Source of the DNA: an uncultured Bacteroidales bacterium
GTDB lineage: Bacteria; Bacteroidota; Bacteroidia; Bacteroidales; P3
Reading direction: 5' to 3'
NCBI GenBank assembly: GCA_900315335.1
Contig: OMYR01000030.1
Span: 1 to 64,000 of the forward strand
Length of the DNA stretch: 64,000 bases
This document shows positions 6,717 to 46,787 of this stretch, piece after piece. Positions within the stretch are counted from its first letter, which is position 1; every line of letters starts with the position of its first letter. The position numbers were made by a program, and so were the translations under genes. Under the pieces are notes generated by a model. That model saw nothing but the letters and a program-made list of their open reading frames with translations, did not search any database and had not been told where the DNA came from.

Positions 6717-6895
6717 ATTTATTACTCATAAAAAACGATTTTTCAAAAAAATTTGTCAAAATGAGTATAATTTTATTAGTGTGTGAAGTAAATTTTTTAA
6801 TGGCTCTCACTATTTTATTGATGTTTAATAAAAATTTACTGATGTTTAACAGCAATTTGCTAATATTAAACATTATTTTTTTAATACCTCATAAA
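6717..6895. repeat. 21-bp unit array A (downstream of porQ)
   Basis: Six consecutive 21-bp units fill 6770-6895, and a more degenerate stretch reaches back to 6717. The best units read AATTTACTGATGTTTAAC plus three bases (6833-6853) and ATTTTATTGATGTTTAAT plus three bases (6812-6832). Others carry the variant cores GTGTGAAG and GGCTCTCAC. Both strands are free of stops over long stretches because 21 is a multiple of three. That gives a heptad-like peptide (LNISKFL...) on the minus strand, which I do not call a gene. Same family as the arrays at 8225, 17154, 41698, 44222, 46620 and 48661. The rest of 6525-6994 is AT-rich with no gene. Confidence 0.75.
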
Positions 6896-8032: not shown

Positions 8033-8224
8033 GTTCAAAAAAGTTTGCAACAACATAATAAACTCAAATTTTACAATTTTATTATAAAAAGATAAAGAAA
8101 TATTGATTAATGTGCATTCTTTTAACATAATATTTTTGATTGCAGACAGTGAAATAGCAGCATCAATACAAGTATTCATTATAATATTTAGGATAATAAA
8201 AACAATGACATCATTTTTCGAAAA

Positions 8225-8329
8225 AATATTTAGTGCAATAAGAAAAATAGTTTCAGTGATTAGTAAAATAGTGTTAGTGATTATTTTATTAGTTTTAAAC
8301 ATCAGTGAAGCGAATAGTAATCACAAAAT
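8225..8329. repeat. 21-bp unit array B (upstream of porQ)
   Basis: Five 21-bp units in phase: 8225-8245, 8246-8266, 8267-8287, 8288-8308 and 8309-8329. The most typical contain AGTGATTAGTAA and TTAAACATCAGTGA. A more degenerate AT-rich stretch with the same spacing continues toward 8120. Together with array A it brackets porQ. The array lets a 435-residue frame run through it on the minus strand, which gives a false N-terminal extension of PorQ. Confidence 0.75.
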
Positions 8330-17107: not shown

Positions 17108-17857
17108 ATGAATGCTTTTAATCATACAAAAAAAATAAGAGGGCTTTTCACAAAATTAGTTTTAAACATCAGTGAAATAGTGTTAAACATCAGTAAATTC
17201 TTTTCACATATTATTTCAGCCCCATCAAAGTGCCTTATTTTATTATGCCTGCCGCTGCTTTTGGTTTCTTGCGACAAAACCAACCAATATGCAAGGAAAG
17301 GCAACAGGAAATACAATAAAAAGGAGTATTCCGAAGCAATAAAAAACTATGAACAGGCTTTGAAAAACGATTCGACATTTGATAAAGCCAACTACAATCT
17401 TGGCAATGCTCTTATGCAAGACAATGGTAAGGATTACTCCAAAGCCGTTGAGCATTACAACAAATACTTAACAAACAAGACGCCTAAGACTTCCAAGGAA
17501 AAGCGAGACGTTGCCAACGCCTTATACAATCGCGGCAATGCCTTATTCGGATTATCGCAAACCAACAAAGAAAGCGAGGAAGGTATGAAGTATTTGAGCC
17601 AAGCCGCCAACGACTATAAGCAATCCATGATTCTAAATCCTAAGGACACCAACGCCAAATACAATTACGCACTTTGTCTTTGGCTTATGAAGAACAATAA
17701 CAATCCTGACGACCAAAACGACAATCAAAACAATAACAACAACAGCGAAATCAACCAAATGTTGAACGCTATAAAGAACAACGAAAAGCAAACCATTTCA
17801 AGGGTAAAGAAGAACAACGAAAATGTACAAGACAAACACAATGAAAAAGATTGGTAG
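17108..17857 (+). CDS. batC: BatC, TPR lipoprotein with a repeat array inserted in its signal region
   Basis: TPR protein of 249 residues. The lipobox LLLVSC puts the lipidated cysteine near residue 55. TPR helices follow (ARKGNRKYNKKEYSEAIKNY, SKAVEHYNKYL, KDTNAKYNYALCLWLM), then an Asn-rich low-complexity linker (about 200-220) and a charged tail. The N-terminus is unusual. Normal lipoprotein signals are 18-25 residues, but here the only in-frame ATG lies 55 codons before the lipobox, and three 21-bp repeat units (17154-17216) encode residues about 16-36 (VLNISEIVLNISKFF). The array keeps the frame because 21 is a multiple of three. It overlaps batD by 17 bases if batD starts at 17841. Whether the long N-region still allows export is unknown. 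Confidence 0.85.
   Translation: MNAFNHTKKIRGLFTKLVLNISEIVLNISKFFSHIISAPSKCLILLCLPLLLVSCDKTNQYARKGNRKYNKKEYSEAIKNYEQALKNDSTFDKANYNLGNALMQDNGKDYSKAVEHYNKYLTNKTPKTSKEKRDVANALYNRGNALFGLSQTNKESEEGMKYLSQAANDYKQSMILNPKDTNAKYNYALCLWLMKNNNNPDDQNDNQNNNNNSEINQMLNAIKNNEKQTISRVKKNNENVQDKHNEKDW
17154..17216. repeat. 21-bp unit array C inside batC
   Basis: Three units of exactly 21 bp: 17154-17174, 17175-17195 and 17196-17216. The first two contain TTAAACATCAGTG and GTTAAACATCAGTA; the third has the variant core TTTTCACATATT. This is the only array of the family that lies inside a clear coding sequence. Confidence 0.8.
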
Positions 17858-20916: not shown

Positions 20917-20948
20917 GCGGGGAACAACTTATTATCATTGTTCCCCGC
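20917..20948 (+). terminator. Terminator of the bat operon
   Basis: GCGGGGAACAA (20917-20927) pairs perfectly with TTGTTCCCCGC (20938-20948) and is followed by CTTTTT. The strong stem lies between convergent genes and may serve both strands, although the T-run favours plus. Confidence 0.92.
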
Positions 20949-20969
20949 CTTTTTCTTTTATTTCTTCGC

Positions 20970-21164
20970 CTAATATTCTTCGCCTATAATGTCCAATACT
21001 TCTTTCGCTATCTTAAAACCTTGTTTGGCTGCCTTGCTATACCATTTAATTGCTTCGGTATAATCTTCCTCTACTCCTTGACCATTATAATAGCACTCAG
21101 CTAACTGATATTGTGTCTCCGCATCACCTTTTTCCGCAGCCTTACGATAACCGTTCAAATTCAT
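20970..21164 (-). CDS. Small Sel1-repeat protein, probably a remnant
   Basis: Protein of 64 residues with one and a half Sel1 (SEL1-like TPR) units: GYRKAAEKGDAETQYQLAEC and YTEAIKWYSKAAKQG. It ends in LDIIGEEY, as the 246-residue paralogue ends in LDGLGEEY. I take ATG 21164 because MNLNGYRKAAEKG mirrors the paralogue's first residues; a longer frame to 21209 is possible. It overlaps the preceding gene's end by 23 bases in another frame, at a run of seven A. It is either a short gene left by unequal recombination between repeats or part of a longer gene split by a one-base insertion in that run. Sel1 proteins are usually adaptor scaffolds. Confidence 0.55.
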   Translation of the reverse strand: MNLNGYRKAAEKGDAETQYQLAECYYNGQGVEEDYTEAIKWYSKAAKQGFKIAKEVLDIIGEEY

Positions 21165-21576
21165 TTTTTTCTTTTGTAAGTATGTCCAATGTTGTTTTCG
21201 CCTCTGCAAAACCTTGTTCGGCTGCCTTGCGATACCATTTCACTGCTTCGGTATAATCTTGCTCTACCCCTTCACCATCTTCATAGCACACGCCTAAATT
21301 ATATTGTGCCTCTGCATAACCTTGTTCGGCTGACTTGCGGAACAGTTCAATCGCTTTGGTACAATCCTGCTCCACCCCATAACCATTGACATACCACAAG
21401 CCTAAACGATTTTGTGCCTCTGCATCACCTTGTTCTGCGTCTTTGCTATACCATTTTGCGGCTTCGGCATAATCTTGCTCTACTCCGTTACCAAGGGCAT
21501 AGCACTCTCCTAATTTATGTTGTGCCTCTGCATCGCCTTGTTCGGCCTTTCGCAAATCTTCAAAACTATCATTCAT
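21142..21576 (-). CDS. Sel1-repeat protein
   Basis: Protein of 144 residues made almost wholly of Sel1 units of 36 residues: GDAEAQHKLGECYALGNGVEQDYAEAAKWY and three more with the AEQGxAEAQ and GVEQDYTEAVKWYRKAA patterns. No signal peptide or membrane helix is seen, so it is probably cytoplasmic. The DNA of the units is also alike (108-bp repeats), which suggests recent unit duplication. The C-terminus, LTKEKNEFERLS, reads across the start of the next small gene. Partners unknown. Confidence 0.8.
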   Translation of the reverse strand: MNDSFEDLRKAEQGDAEAQHKLGECYALGNGVEQDYAEAAKWYSKDAEQGDAEAQNRLGLWYVNGYGVEQDCTKAIELFRKSAEQGYAEAQYNLGVCYEDGEGVEQDYTEAVKWYRKAAEQGFAEAKTTLDILTKEKNEFERLS

Positions 21577-21673
21577 TTATTGAATTGTTTTTAATTATTA
21601 TCAATTCCCCTAACTTTCCGTCTTCTCTATACCTTATTAATATTGTATATCCCTTTATTTCTTATTTCTTCGC

Positions 21674-22414
21674 CTAATATTCTTCGCCTAATCCGTCCAA
21701 TTTTTCTTTCGCATCTGCATTACCTTGTTCGGCTGCCTTACGAAACCATTTCACCGCTTCGGTGCAATCTTGAAGAACTCCTTTACCCTTGAAATAACAC
21801 TCGCCTAACATATATTGTGCCTTTATATGACCTTGCTCGGCGGCTTTGTGATACCATATCACAGCTTCGATATAATTTGGCGTTACCCCGAACCCAAGAC
21901 AATAGCAATCGCCTAATATATATTGTGCCTTTGCATTACCTTGTTCGGCGGCTTTGCGCCACCATTTCACGGCTTCAGCATAACTTTTCTCTACTCCTTT
22001 ACCCTTGACATAGCACGCACATAATTTATTTTGTGCCCTTACATAACCTTGTTCGGCGGCCTTGCGATACCATTTCACTGCTTCGGTATAACTTTTCGTT
22101 ACTTCTTTACCCTTGAAATAGCACTCGCCTAACATATATTGTGCCTTTACATGACCTTGTTCGGCGGCCTTGCGATACCATTTCACTGCTTCGGTATAAT
22201 CTCGCTCTACTCCGTTACCATAGTAATAGCTCTCGCCCAACATACATTGTGCCATTGCATTACCTTGTTCGGCTGTTTTGCGATACCATTTCAAGGCTTC
22301 AGTATAATCTTGCGTTACTCCTTTACCAAAGTAATAGCACCAGCCTAAACTATTTTGTGCCATTACATTACCTTGTTCGGCTGCCTTACGATATTTTTCA
22401 ATCTTGTTCTTCAT
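21674..22414 (-). CDS. Sel1-repeat protein, six or seven units
   Basis: Protein of 246 residues, entirely Sel1 repeats: repeated YRKAAEQG-N/H-AxAQYMLGECY and GVxxDYTEAVKWYRKAAEQG. Units 3, 4 and the last are nearly identical in DNA (108-bp period). No signal peptide. The last bases and 3' flank (TTTCTTCGCCTAATATTCTT at about 21660-21680) recur after the small gene at 20970, so the two loci are duplicates of one ancestral gene. No promoter of the TAnnTTTG type is visible in the AT-rich 85 bases upstream. Role unknown. Confidence 0.85.
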   Translation of the reverse strand: MKNKIEKYRKAAEQGNVMAQNSLGWCYYFGKGVTQDYTEALKWYRKTAEQGNAMAQCMLGESYYYGNGVERDYTEAVKWYRKAAEQGHVKAQYMLGECYFKGKEVTKSYTEAVKWYRKAAEQGYVRAQNKLCACYVKGKGVEKSYAEAVKWWRKAAEQGNAKAQYILGDCYCLGFGVTPNYIEAVIWYHKAAEQGHIKAQYMLGECYFKGKGVLQDCTEAVKWFRKAAEQGNADAKEKLDGLGEEY

Positions 22415-22501
22415 GTTATTATTTATTTTTTAATTGTTATTAATCTATCTTAATTACTATTTTCTATCCTATATATAATAATGTGTATCCCTTTATTTCC
22501 C

Positions 22502-22950
22502 GTCCATTTGCTTTTCTATCAAGTTCATTTCCCTTTGCTTCCAATCCGTTTGCCTTTATTTTCCGTTTGTCCGCCTTTACTTATTATTTCAAAACCTGAT
22601 GTTATCGTCCAAAAACCTCTAACTATCGTCTGAAAACCTCTGATTCTCGTACCTATATTGCGGAATATAGCGATGGTATATTGCGGAATATACGAAAAGT
22701 AAAGGTTTTGGAACGAAAACCAAAGGTTTTCAAATGATAACCAGAGGTTTTCAAACGCTCGTAAAAGGCATCGAAATATATATTAAAAAGTATCGCACCC
22801 AAAACAAAAGATTTTATAGCACAATTCAAGATTTTTATACTTAAAGGCAAAGTCATCACAGCCAAATTCAACGGATTGAAATTAAAATCAAAGACAAATA
22901 AACTGAAATAAAAGGCGGATAAAACCGAAATAAAAACAAATAATAAAAAT
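22502..22950. repeat. Mirror-symmetric array of 21-bp units
   Basis: Left side: four units of GTCC/TTTGC type (22502-22585), then three with AAAACCT at 22591, 22612 and 22633, exactly 21 bp apart. The centre holds two copies of TATATTGCGGAATATA (22654-22669 and 22677-22692), itself a palindrome with a GCGG loop; the first copy stays in the 21-bp phase. The right side is the inverse: AAAGGTTTT-type units at 22701, 22722 and 22743, then further 21-bp units to about 22950, one of which (AAATAAAAGGCGGATAAAAC) is the inverse of the unit at 22565. The whole could fold into a long imperfect hairpin. The rest of 22415-22501 and 23059-23113 shows nothing else. Confidence 0.8.
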
Positions 22951-23024
22951 ATCGGGATTTCGGGACGTGGAATAGGCGGCAAAGAAATCGTATTGAAGGT
23001 TGGAAATTTGGTATTTGTTTTCAT
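22653..23024 (-). CDS. Doubtful small membrane-type protein overlapping the mirror array
   Basis: A possible gene of 123 residues, unlike any family I know. For it: a good -7 element (TACCTTTG, 23051-23058) lies 26 bases ahead of ATG 23024. The first residues are MKTNTKFPTFNT. Two hydrophobic stretches follow (about 26-50 and 55-95), then a seven-residue pattern (LKTSGYH, LKTFGFR, SKTFTFR) which is simply the translation of the 21-bp units. Against it: most of the frame is open because the DNA is repeated every seven codons, and no homologue is evident to me. It could be a real gene whose 3' half was replaced by the array. Confidence 0.3.
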   Translation of the reverse strand: MKTNTKFPTFNTISLPPIPRPEIPIFLLFVFISVLSAFYFSLFVFDFNFNPLNLAVMTLPLSIKILNCAIKSFVLGAILFNIYFDAFYERLKTSGYHLKTFGFRSKTFTFRIFRNIPSLYSAI

Positions 23025-23050
23025 TTGTATTGTTATTGGCTTATTTGGTG

Positions 23051-23058
23051 CAAAGGTA
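23051..23058 (-). promoter_or_regulatory. -7 element ahead of the doubtful small gene or array transcript
   Basis: On the minus strand TACCTTTG followed by CA fits TAnnTTTG. It could drive the 123-residue frame or a non-coding RNA covering the mirror array. No clear TTTG lies about 20 bases upstream. Confidence 0.45.
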
Positions 23059-23113
23059 TGAAAGTTTTGAAAAATGACAAGCACACGGCAACGAAAAAAT
23101 TAAAGGAAAACAA

Positions 23114-23144
23114 AAAAGGTCTCGCCTGAACGGCAAGACCTTTT
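23114..23144 (-). terminator. Terminator of the ribosomal protein cluster
   Basis: A stem with AAAAGGTCT and GCC on the left and GGC and AGACCTTTT on the right (one mismatch) is followed on the minus strand by TTTTTTG. It lies 27 bases after the rplQ stop. Confidence 0.85.
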
Positions 23145-29970: not shown

Positions 29971-30324
29971 TTAGAATTTTAAACCATTTTCTCTTGCTGC
30001 CTCTGCCAAAGATTTAACTCTGCCATGATACAAATAACCATTTCTATCAAAAACAACTGTGTCAATTCCAGCCGTCTTTGCTCTCTGAGCAATATTTTTA
30101 CCAACAACTGATGCAACCTCAGATTTTGTACCTTGTTTTTCAAAGCCTTTCTCTTTTGAAGATGCAGAAACTAATGTTTTGCCATCTACATCGTTGATCA
30201 ATTGTGCATAAATTTCCTTATTGCTTCTAAACACTGTAAGACGAGGTTTTTGTTCCGTTCCATTAACTTTTTTACGGATTCTCATCTTAATCTTCTGTCT
30301 TCTAATATCTTTCTTCGTTGCCAT
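29971..30324 (-). CDS. rplR: 50S ribosomal protein L18
   Basis: 5S rRNA-binding protein of 117 residues with [10 protein letters not shown]-like [18 protein letters not shown] and the C-terminal [23 protein letters not shown]. Six bases separate it from rpsE. Confidence 0.97.
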
Positions 30325-30356
30325 ATTATAAATCCTCAGATTAAATTATACGAACA

Positions 30357-30911
30357 CTATTTTGCAGCAGCTTTACCTGCTTTCTTTCTAACGACTTCAC
30401 CTGCAAAACGAATACCTTTACCCTTGTAAGGCTCTGGCTTACGTAATGAACGAATCTTTGCAGCAACTTGACCTAACAATTGTTTATCACAACAAGTCAT
30501 TTTGATAAGAGGATTCTTTCCTTTTTCGGTGATAGTCTCAACTTTAATCTCTTCTGGTAATTCAAAAAATATACTGTGAGAATAACCCAACGCAAGTTCC
30601 AAAACTTGTCCCTGTGCTTGTGCTTTGTAACCGACTCCGATAACTTCCTGAGTTGTATGAAAACCATCAGAAACTCCAACGACCATATTATGAACCAAAG
30701 CTCTATACAATCCATGTAAAGCCTTATCATGTTTGGAATCATTTCCACGTTCCAAATGCAAAACACCTTCATCAATAGTCATCTTGATACAAGGATCTAC
30801 CTTCTGTTCCAAAGTTCCTAATTTACCTTTAACGGTAACTGAGTTATCGTCAGATATCTTTACTTCAACTCCCTGAGGAATATTTATTGGTAATTTACCT
30901 ATTCTTGACAT
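30357..30911 (-). CDS. rplF: 50S ribosomal protein L6
   Basis: Protein of 184 residues near the sarcin-ricin loop. The start is set at ATG 30911 (MSRIGKLPINIPQGV), the standard L6 start; the frame is open 10 codons more. The second domain carries VIGVGYKAQAQGQVLELALGYS and the C-terminal RKPEPYKGKGIRFAGEVVRKK. Confidence 0.97.
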   Translation of the reverse strand: MSRIGKLPINIPQGVEVKISDDNSVTVKGKLGTLEQKVDPCIKMTIDEGVLHLERGNDSKHDKALHGLYRALVHNMVVGVSDGFHTTQEVIGVGYKAQAQGQVLELALGYSHSIFFELPEEIKVETITEKGKNPLIKMTCCDKQLLGQVAAKIRSLRKPEPYKGKGIRFAGEVVRKKAGKAAAK

Positions 30912-44097: not shown

Positions 44098-44221
44098 AGT
44101 ACTTTGTTTTAATTTTTTGCAAAGTTCGTTTATGGATATTACATAATTGTTTCATAAATTTTAAGTTTTTGTTACAAAAAACTTCTATGCTTTCACAAAA
44201 TCAATCAATGAAAAGAATTTT

Positions 44222-44284
44222 CTAATGTTTAACACTATTTTATTAATGTTAAACATAATTTTACTGGTGTTTAACATCACTAAA
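44222..44284. repeat. 21-bp unit array E
   Basis: Three units of 21 bp: 44222-44242, 44243-44263 and 44264-44284, with cores AATGTTTAACAC, AATGTTAAACAT and GGTGTTTAACATC. It lies in the 220-base gap between the histidine kinase end and the PiT start. The remaining bases show no other motif. Confidence 0.8.
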
Positions 44285-46563: not shown

Positions 46564-46619
46564 ACATTTCAAAAAAATCTTAATACTTGGAATTTTGCAA
46601 TTTATTTAAGTCCTTAAAA

Positions 46620-46682
46620 TAATGTTTAACATTAGTAAATTAATCATTAACATTAAAAAATTAGTGTTAATGATTAATAAAT
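46620..46682. repeat. 21-bp unit array F
   Basis: Units at 46620-46640, 46641-46661 and 46662-46682, with cores AATGTTTAACATTAGTAAAT, ATCATTAACATTA and AGTGTTAATGATTAATAAAT. Past the array, TTTTTAAGCCGTAAAAATTT matches the hairpin segment after array D with changes that break the stem. It lies between the divergent promoters of the two-component operon and lpxK. Confidence 0.8.
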
Positions 46683-46787
46683 TTTTAAGCCGTAAAAATT
46701 TTGCCGTTTGTTTTATGACTTTTTCATCAAAGTATAAAATTGAAGCGAAATAAGATTTCATTACCATCAATTACGATTTTTTTGTTT

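Follow-up and report, generated by a model that had tools for sequence, protein, structure and literature searches.

The 64,000-nt stretch of DNA analysed here (the window) belongs to contig 43 (C43) of a Bacteroidales-like genome with a size of 2.13 Mb in 66 contigs. At positions 22485-22950, it harbors a mirror-symmetric element, which is located between Sel1-repeat ORFs on the left and rplQ, rpoA, and ribosomal genes on the right, as already placed by the initial annotation. Two Sel1-repeat ORFs with 108-bp repeats (20970-22414) share a variable block with the element (20933-23108), and the transcription terminator hairpin of the neighboring rplQ (23114-23144, minus strand) lies outside the element. 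The inner left arm (22591-22653, plus strand) consists of three 21-bp units beginning with AAAACCT, which start at 22591, 22612, and 22633 and thus show strict spacings of 21 and 21 bp; this arm could be aligned with paralogous copies on contigs C34 and C39. It is faced by an inner right arm (22694-22757, minus strand; period 21, 3.1 copies), in which the left-arm unit is inverted, with AAAGGTTTT at 22701 and 22722 and AGAGGTTTT at 22743. While the spacings of these three facing units (again 21 and 21 bp) agreed with the initial annotation, its text for the third unit was off by one base, since AGAGGTTTT carries one changed base compared to AAAGGTTTT. Two identical copies of TATATTGCGGAATATA form the center (core unit 1, 22654-22669; core unit 2, 22677-22692; both on the plus strand), 23 bp apart and each with a 5-bp stem around TGCGGA. 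A second layer of degenerate 21-bp units, also described before as recurring in inverted form, was found at 22485-22590 on the left (..TTTGCCTTTATTTTCCG / TTTGTCCGCCTTTACTTATTA..), with inverted partners at 22876-22940, and at 22758-22950 on the right, where 22885-22943 displays a period of 21. Complementarity reached 73% over 41 nt between the outer arms 22552-22592 and 22876-22916, and 77% between 22549-22578 and 22911-22940. The outer left block is common to the C34 and C39 copies, and the outer right layer also occurs beside the C34 copy. Overall, core and inner units are most alike and outer units most decayed.

Self-identity of region 22500-22960 at lag 21 was 0.518 compared to 0.281+-0.021 in 300 dinucleotide shuffles, which gave a top value of 0.368 at any lag between 10 and 39. 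Inverted symmetry, determined ungapped with 105-bp arms, amounted to 0.543 and was above every shuffle (maximum 0.495), so that the 21-bp ladder and the inverted symmetry withstood the self-comparison that had been proposed for them. Folding of both strands, proposed as a further check, was predicted to be better than that of shuffles (z -4.9 for the plus strand, z -8.0 for the minus strand). It is unlikely that the mirror element is an assembly artefact, given that arm complementarity is limited to 73-79% and that this copy lies inside a 138-kb contig, whose rplQ side is collinear with a sister species from 23108 onwards.

Copies in the same genome and in a sister species

The proposed search of the genome for similar elements revealed about a dozen of them, all with inverted 21-bp arms flanking 23-bp core units. 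BLASTn identified paralogues at C34:11936-12362 and C39:20375-20645 and a diverged one at C27:30259-30529, a search with the core motif led to further mirror elements at C13, C17, C18, and C54, and a search using one core-motif copy added those at C26, C57, and C30 as well as one at the start of C18. They follow a common plan, in which outer 21-bp units of type A (TCTGAAAACCTCTACTTTTCG) or type B (TCTAAATCACGCTACTTTTCG) point to the center, while the 23-bp core units occur in one or both orientations and consist of a 5-nt stem around TGCGAT or TGCGGA. Changes in the core stem are compensated among the copies (TATAT/ATATA, AACTT/AAGTT, and AGGTT/AACCT). The copies are located between ordinary genes in all orientations, and no transposase was found among the ORFs adjoining them. 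Neither sharp terminal repeats nor a clean target duplication was detected at the copies, as the outer units fade. BLASTn of the element against phage and plasmid sequences gave no match, the exact core pattern retrieved only AT-rich chance matches from GTDB and IMG/VR, and no copies were found among 13 genus-mate genomes. Several contigs (C13, C17, C30, C54, C18, and C62) terminate within or next to a mirror element or an HU_rel gene, and the contig-end copies at C13, C17, C54, C30, and C18 are incomplete. Mirror elements and HU_rel repeats probably break assemblies, and the copy numbers given here are probably underestimates.

The genome of the sister species (G002) is about 96% identical in its coding DNA. 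BLASTn gave no match in it for the element in the window. At the C27 site, the element (30291-30523) is missing in the sister, while at the C26 and C57 sites it is present in strongly rewritten form; the C26 element is 78% identical to that of the sister compared to about 94% for its flank, and the C57 core stem reads AGGTT/AACCT here and AAGTT/AACTT there. Collinearity is interrupted at the variable block 20933-23108, in place of which the sister carries 7.1 kb of other DNA including an HU_rel-array-HU_rel-HU_rel cassette, i.e., a different mirror element among three small genes. Another mirror element, with the core TATATAGTACTATATA and adjoining a gene of the HU_rel kind, occupies the C39 site in the sister. 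Thus, one and the same gap can be occupied by unrelated mirror elements in two closely related species. At the Sel1 position of the variable block, the sister possesses a 1602-codon leucine-rich-repeat-like gene.

21/22-bp arrays and their association with HU_rel genes

Sequence sampled at random from five other genus members and from two further genera of the family displayed a pronounced, narrow maximum of intergenic self-similarity at 21/22 bp, with species-specific unit sequences. Overall, 68 of 270 intergenic segments of the family carried a 21-22-bp array, compared to 0.8 at other lags and 0.4 in shuffled sequence; several further, thinly sampled genera of the family showed none, and in other families of the order arrays were found in 2 of 79 segments. 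A typical array has about four units, with inverted copies enriched at a distance of one and two units. Units in both orientations are the rule across the whole class of arrays. The initial annotation was right about the mirror symmetry, and also that a simple tandem duplication does not account for it. Arrays were equally frequent in convergent (10/34), codirectional (34/114), and divergent (11/38) gaps. AAA/TTT power at half the unit length (10.5-11 bp) was 8.4 compared to 3.4, 3.2, and 2.5 at other harmonics, and the recurrence of A/T tracts at every half unit is what helically phased, curved DNA would be expected to show.

Another 21-bp unit, TTAGTGTTAAACATCAGTAAA, which is partly palindromic, was counted at least 237 times in the genome when up to 2 mismatches were allowed, as opposed to a single control match; the sister has a similar number at 3 mismatches, and only background was seen elsewhere. 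Most arrays of this unit are found at orthologous places in the sister with ordinary divergence, which argues for vertical inheritance. In the window, such arrays lie at 6814-6872, 8222-8297, 17157-17198, 44216-44277, and 46615-46683. ORF 17108-17857 carries one such array at its 5' end (region 17108-17260), where the array precedes a lipoprotein-like signal and extends the predicted N-terminus by VLNIS repeats; the actual start of this ORF may lie further downstream.

In the sister cassette, the mirror array lies among three genes for proteins of 134-136 residues of the HU_rel type (TIGR01201, PF18291). HU1 (77.7 bits) and HU2 (73.8 bits) scored above and HU3 (54.4 bits) below the TIGR01201 cut-off of 68.6 bits, and all three were above the PF18291 cut-off. 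The cassette occurs twice in the sister in near-identical form (C53 and C14 sites), and its array at C53 is related to the solo type-B elements C26 (BLASTn, 83% over 193 bp, E 2e-51) and C57 (E 2e-12). A cassette of two HU_rel genes, an array, and a truncated HU_rel gene was also identified on C43 itself at 119.4-121.0 kb (119396-120983), with a third core type (ACATCGCTCTGATAT) and a spacing of 23 bp. HU_rel proteins abound in Bacteroidota, with 2-40 matches per genome in the search of 13 genomes from which the HU_rel loci were drawn. A genome of another genus of the family (G014) revealed 40 matches in 2.7 Mb, with several tandem clusters. Among the family genomes, 15 of 20 HU_rel genes had an array upstream and 0 of 11 downstream, compared to 75 of 251 controls. 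This association is significant when pooled (P 9e-5) and moderately significant after stratification by genome (P 0.006, Stouffer), where it is weaker because arrays are so common within the family. Orthologous HU_rel genes of different species share a common unit type, which is also dispersed in the same genomes. For the type-A units of the element at 22485-22950, no cognate HU_rel was found, and no HU_rel gene adjoins it. An HU_rel triplet on C8 has AAAACCT/AGGTTTT units upstream, which match the type-A element at the level of the motif only, as BLASTn gave no significant similarity between the element and this array.

For an independent check, genes of the HU_rel type were taken from a plasmid collection, covering named Bacteroides, Phocaeicola, Parabacteroides, and Prevotella. 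Here, a 20-23-bp array was present within 450 bp upstream of 13 of 17 HU_rel-type genes, many of them from a few strains, compared to 1 of 37 control genes (P 2.7e-8); three loci had no array and one more was below the threshold. The arrays usually comprise four hairpin-like units, several of the form CAC-N4-GTG, and in 8 of the 13 a TANNTTTG box, which is the Bacteroidetes promoter element, precedes the array by 21-32 bp (background 3%). In 6 arrays, the spacers of units within the array were mutually reverse-complementary, compared to 0.75 expected, which is the mirror rule in miniature. In Bacteroides and Parabacteroides loci L287, L297, L298, and L299, the leaders of HU genes contain, directly past this box, four hairpins of 22 nt each with the form CAC-N4-GTG (or AC-N4-GT), which could also function at the RNA level. 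Found in one data set, the link between HU_rel genes and arrays was thus reproduced in a second one, with the upstream position that marks an HU-like operator array seen at 13 of 17 named and 15 of 20 family genes.

Possible origin and function of the mirror element

Based on these data, we favor, at a probability of roughly 55%, that the element is a solo, mirror-symmetric putative binding array of a class belonging with HU_rel (TIGR01201/HU-HIG) proteins. One HU_rel dimer would bind per 21-22-bp unit, and the spacing of two helical turns would bring all the sites to a single face of the DNA, which would be helically phased and probably curved, and the bound dimers might thus be aligned into a stiff or wrapped complex. 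An array beside an HU_rel gene could act as an autoregulatory operator in its promoter or leader, while solo copies, such as that between rplQ and the Sel1 genes, might serve local nucleoid organisation or be by-products of spreading array cassettes. The mirror layout would then represent two opposed arrays of sites around a hairpin-capable core. It counts against this explanation that HU proteins are usually only weakly sequence-specific. The association described above suggests that each HU-like protein has a private DNA landing strip. We know of no explanation for the function of HU_rel proteins, and a literature search, with most subscription journals outside its coverage, found nothing on these proteins or on their link to arrays.

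In a wider sense, the sequence comparisons may tentatively be read as an unrecognised protein-DNA system of the Bacteroidales, in which each HU_rel paralogue would recognise and regulate itself via its own phased palindromic 21/22-bp array, these arrays would spread in solo and mirror form, and fast turnover of the pairs would rewrite intergenic DNA in each species. Should every HU_rel protein have a phased array of its own, both before its gene and at other places, HU_rel proteins would count as HU-type proteins directed by sequence, with targets readable from sequence. A sizeable share of the intergenic DNA of one family would be explained if this holds true, and the turnover of HU_rel genes and arrays would parallel the co-evolution of eukaryotic satellite DNA and its binding proteins. 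Such fast co-evolution of a DNA-packing protein with repeats would be testable in ordinary Bacteroides laboratory strains.

Another explanation, which we consider rather unlikely, is a non-autonomous MITE-like mobile element with ends and core bound by some transposase, its mirror form being the inverted-repeat form of the element and the HU_rel genes being hitchhikers or host factors; it is compatible with the binding-array reading. The dispersal of about a dozen copies in one genome and none in 13 genus mates, the absence of the C27 element in the sister, the two near-identical cassettes there, and the different mirror elements of two species at the same site are all in line with mobility, for which BrickBuilt of Porphyromonas gingivalis provides a precedent (PMC4596501). 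However, apart from the dispersed copies and the one absence in the sister, generic MITE features such as sharp ends and a clean target duplication were not seen, and no transposase is encoded beside the copies. A Y1/RAYT transposase (PF01797) was detected in 0 of 14 genomes of the genus, while control genomes were positive, and most T-type arrays are orthologous in the sister, pointing to vertical inheritance.

A structured RNA or bidirectional terminator, i.e., a long hairpin acting in the transcript, for instance by stopping transcription or by shielding the rplQ or Sel1 mRNA at its 3' end, appears improbable. It is favored by the strong predicted folding (z -8 for the strand that carries the flanking genes), the compensated core stems, and the position of arrays often just past the promoter box at named HU_rel genes, where they are probably transcribed. 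RNA-level selection on the arms was nevertheless rejected, as mismatches over 8 copies revealed no strand-specific G:U (wobble) bias (about 49 vs. 37), and a role as terminator or mRNA end was rejected, as arrays do not depend on gene orientation and are not depleted in divergent gaps. Moreover, rplQ has its separate terminator, and an Rfam scan gave nothing above the gathering score. With the arms at orthologous sites being largely rewritten as well, the suggestion of the initial annotation that a long RNA hairpin is under selection could not be upheld.

We regard it as very improbable that the element is a neutral product of replication, in which a quasi-palindrome grows outwards from its center through slippage and hairpin-driven template switching and one arm corrects the other, resulting in symmetry without function. 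The decay from the core outwards and the rewritten arms of orthologous elements would fit such a process, and compensated stems are also expected from template switching. Yet slippage predicts neither the common four-unit 21/22-bp arrays with helical phasing, nor their absence or rarity in other families of the order, nor the specific position upstream of HU_rel genes in named genera. A coding role was rejected as highly unlikely: though a minus-strand ORF of 143 codons with heptad repeats (22653-23084) runs through the right arm without a stop and a comparable one of 93 codons exists at C39, 21 is a multiple of three, so that a stop-free unit is open in all its copies, while frames break in the 23-bp core, frames and strands differ among the copies, and at C34 the open frame crosses the element in the other relative direction.

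Comparison with known repeat systems

As a putative HU_rel-linked binding array, the element has its nearest known counterparts in the following systems. BrickBuilt, a MITE of P. gingivalis, consists of 23-nt direct tandem units and has IS5-like terminal repeats (GAGACCTTTGCA..) (PMC4596501). It resembles the present elements in its occurrence in intergenic regions of Bacteroidales, its units being spacer-less, with about 19 copies, a limited host range, and promoters in the element ends (PMC4596501). In contrast, the present elements are mirror-symmetric with 21-bp arms and 23-bp cores, lack sharp ends, and are linked to HU_rel; inspection of the printed copies by eye revealed no ends of the GAGACCTTTGCA type. 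REP/BIME and CGTC-tagged REPs are likewise short palindromic extragenic units in opposite orientation with many species-specific copies (PMC3733652), and CGTC is also found at the start of many type A and B units. While a CGTC-tagged REP has an 8-9 bp stem directly after the tag and a short CCA-like tail (PMC3733652), units such as CGTCTAAATCACGCTACTTTT carry CGTC without an 8-9 bp stem. Furthermore, the present units form ordered mirror arrays with a phasing of 21-22 bp, and no RAYT was found.

An HU-type protein is linked to a large inverted repeat in two other cases, namely P. gingivalis PG0121 with a 77-bp repeat before the capsule operon and the E. coli hupA promoter, for which control of transcription via a cruciform or supercoiling was proposed (PMC3969353). 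PG0121 is HU-like, similar to E. coli HU, and shows little sequence preference (PMC3969353). The present HU_rel paralogues differ from it in that each has its own phased multi-unit array and that arrays lie scattered over the genome. At plasmid origins, iteron arrays consist of helix-phased direct repeats of 20-22 bp, to which a self-repressing protein encoded next door binds cooperatively. Compared to these, the present units occur in both orientations and near chromosomal housekeeping genes, and the proposed partner has an HU fold. Altogether, none of BrickBuilt, REP/BIME, CGTC-tagged REPs, and the PG0121 and hupA repeats joins phased mirror arrays with HU_rel genes.
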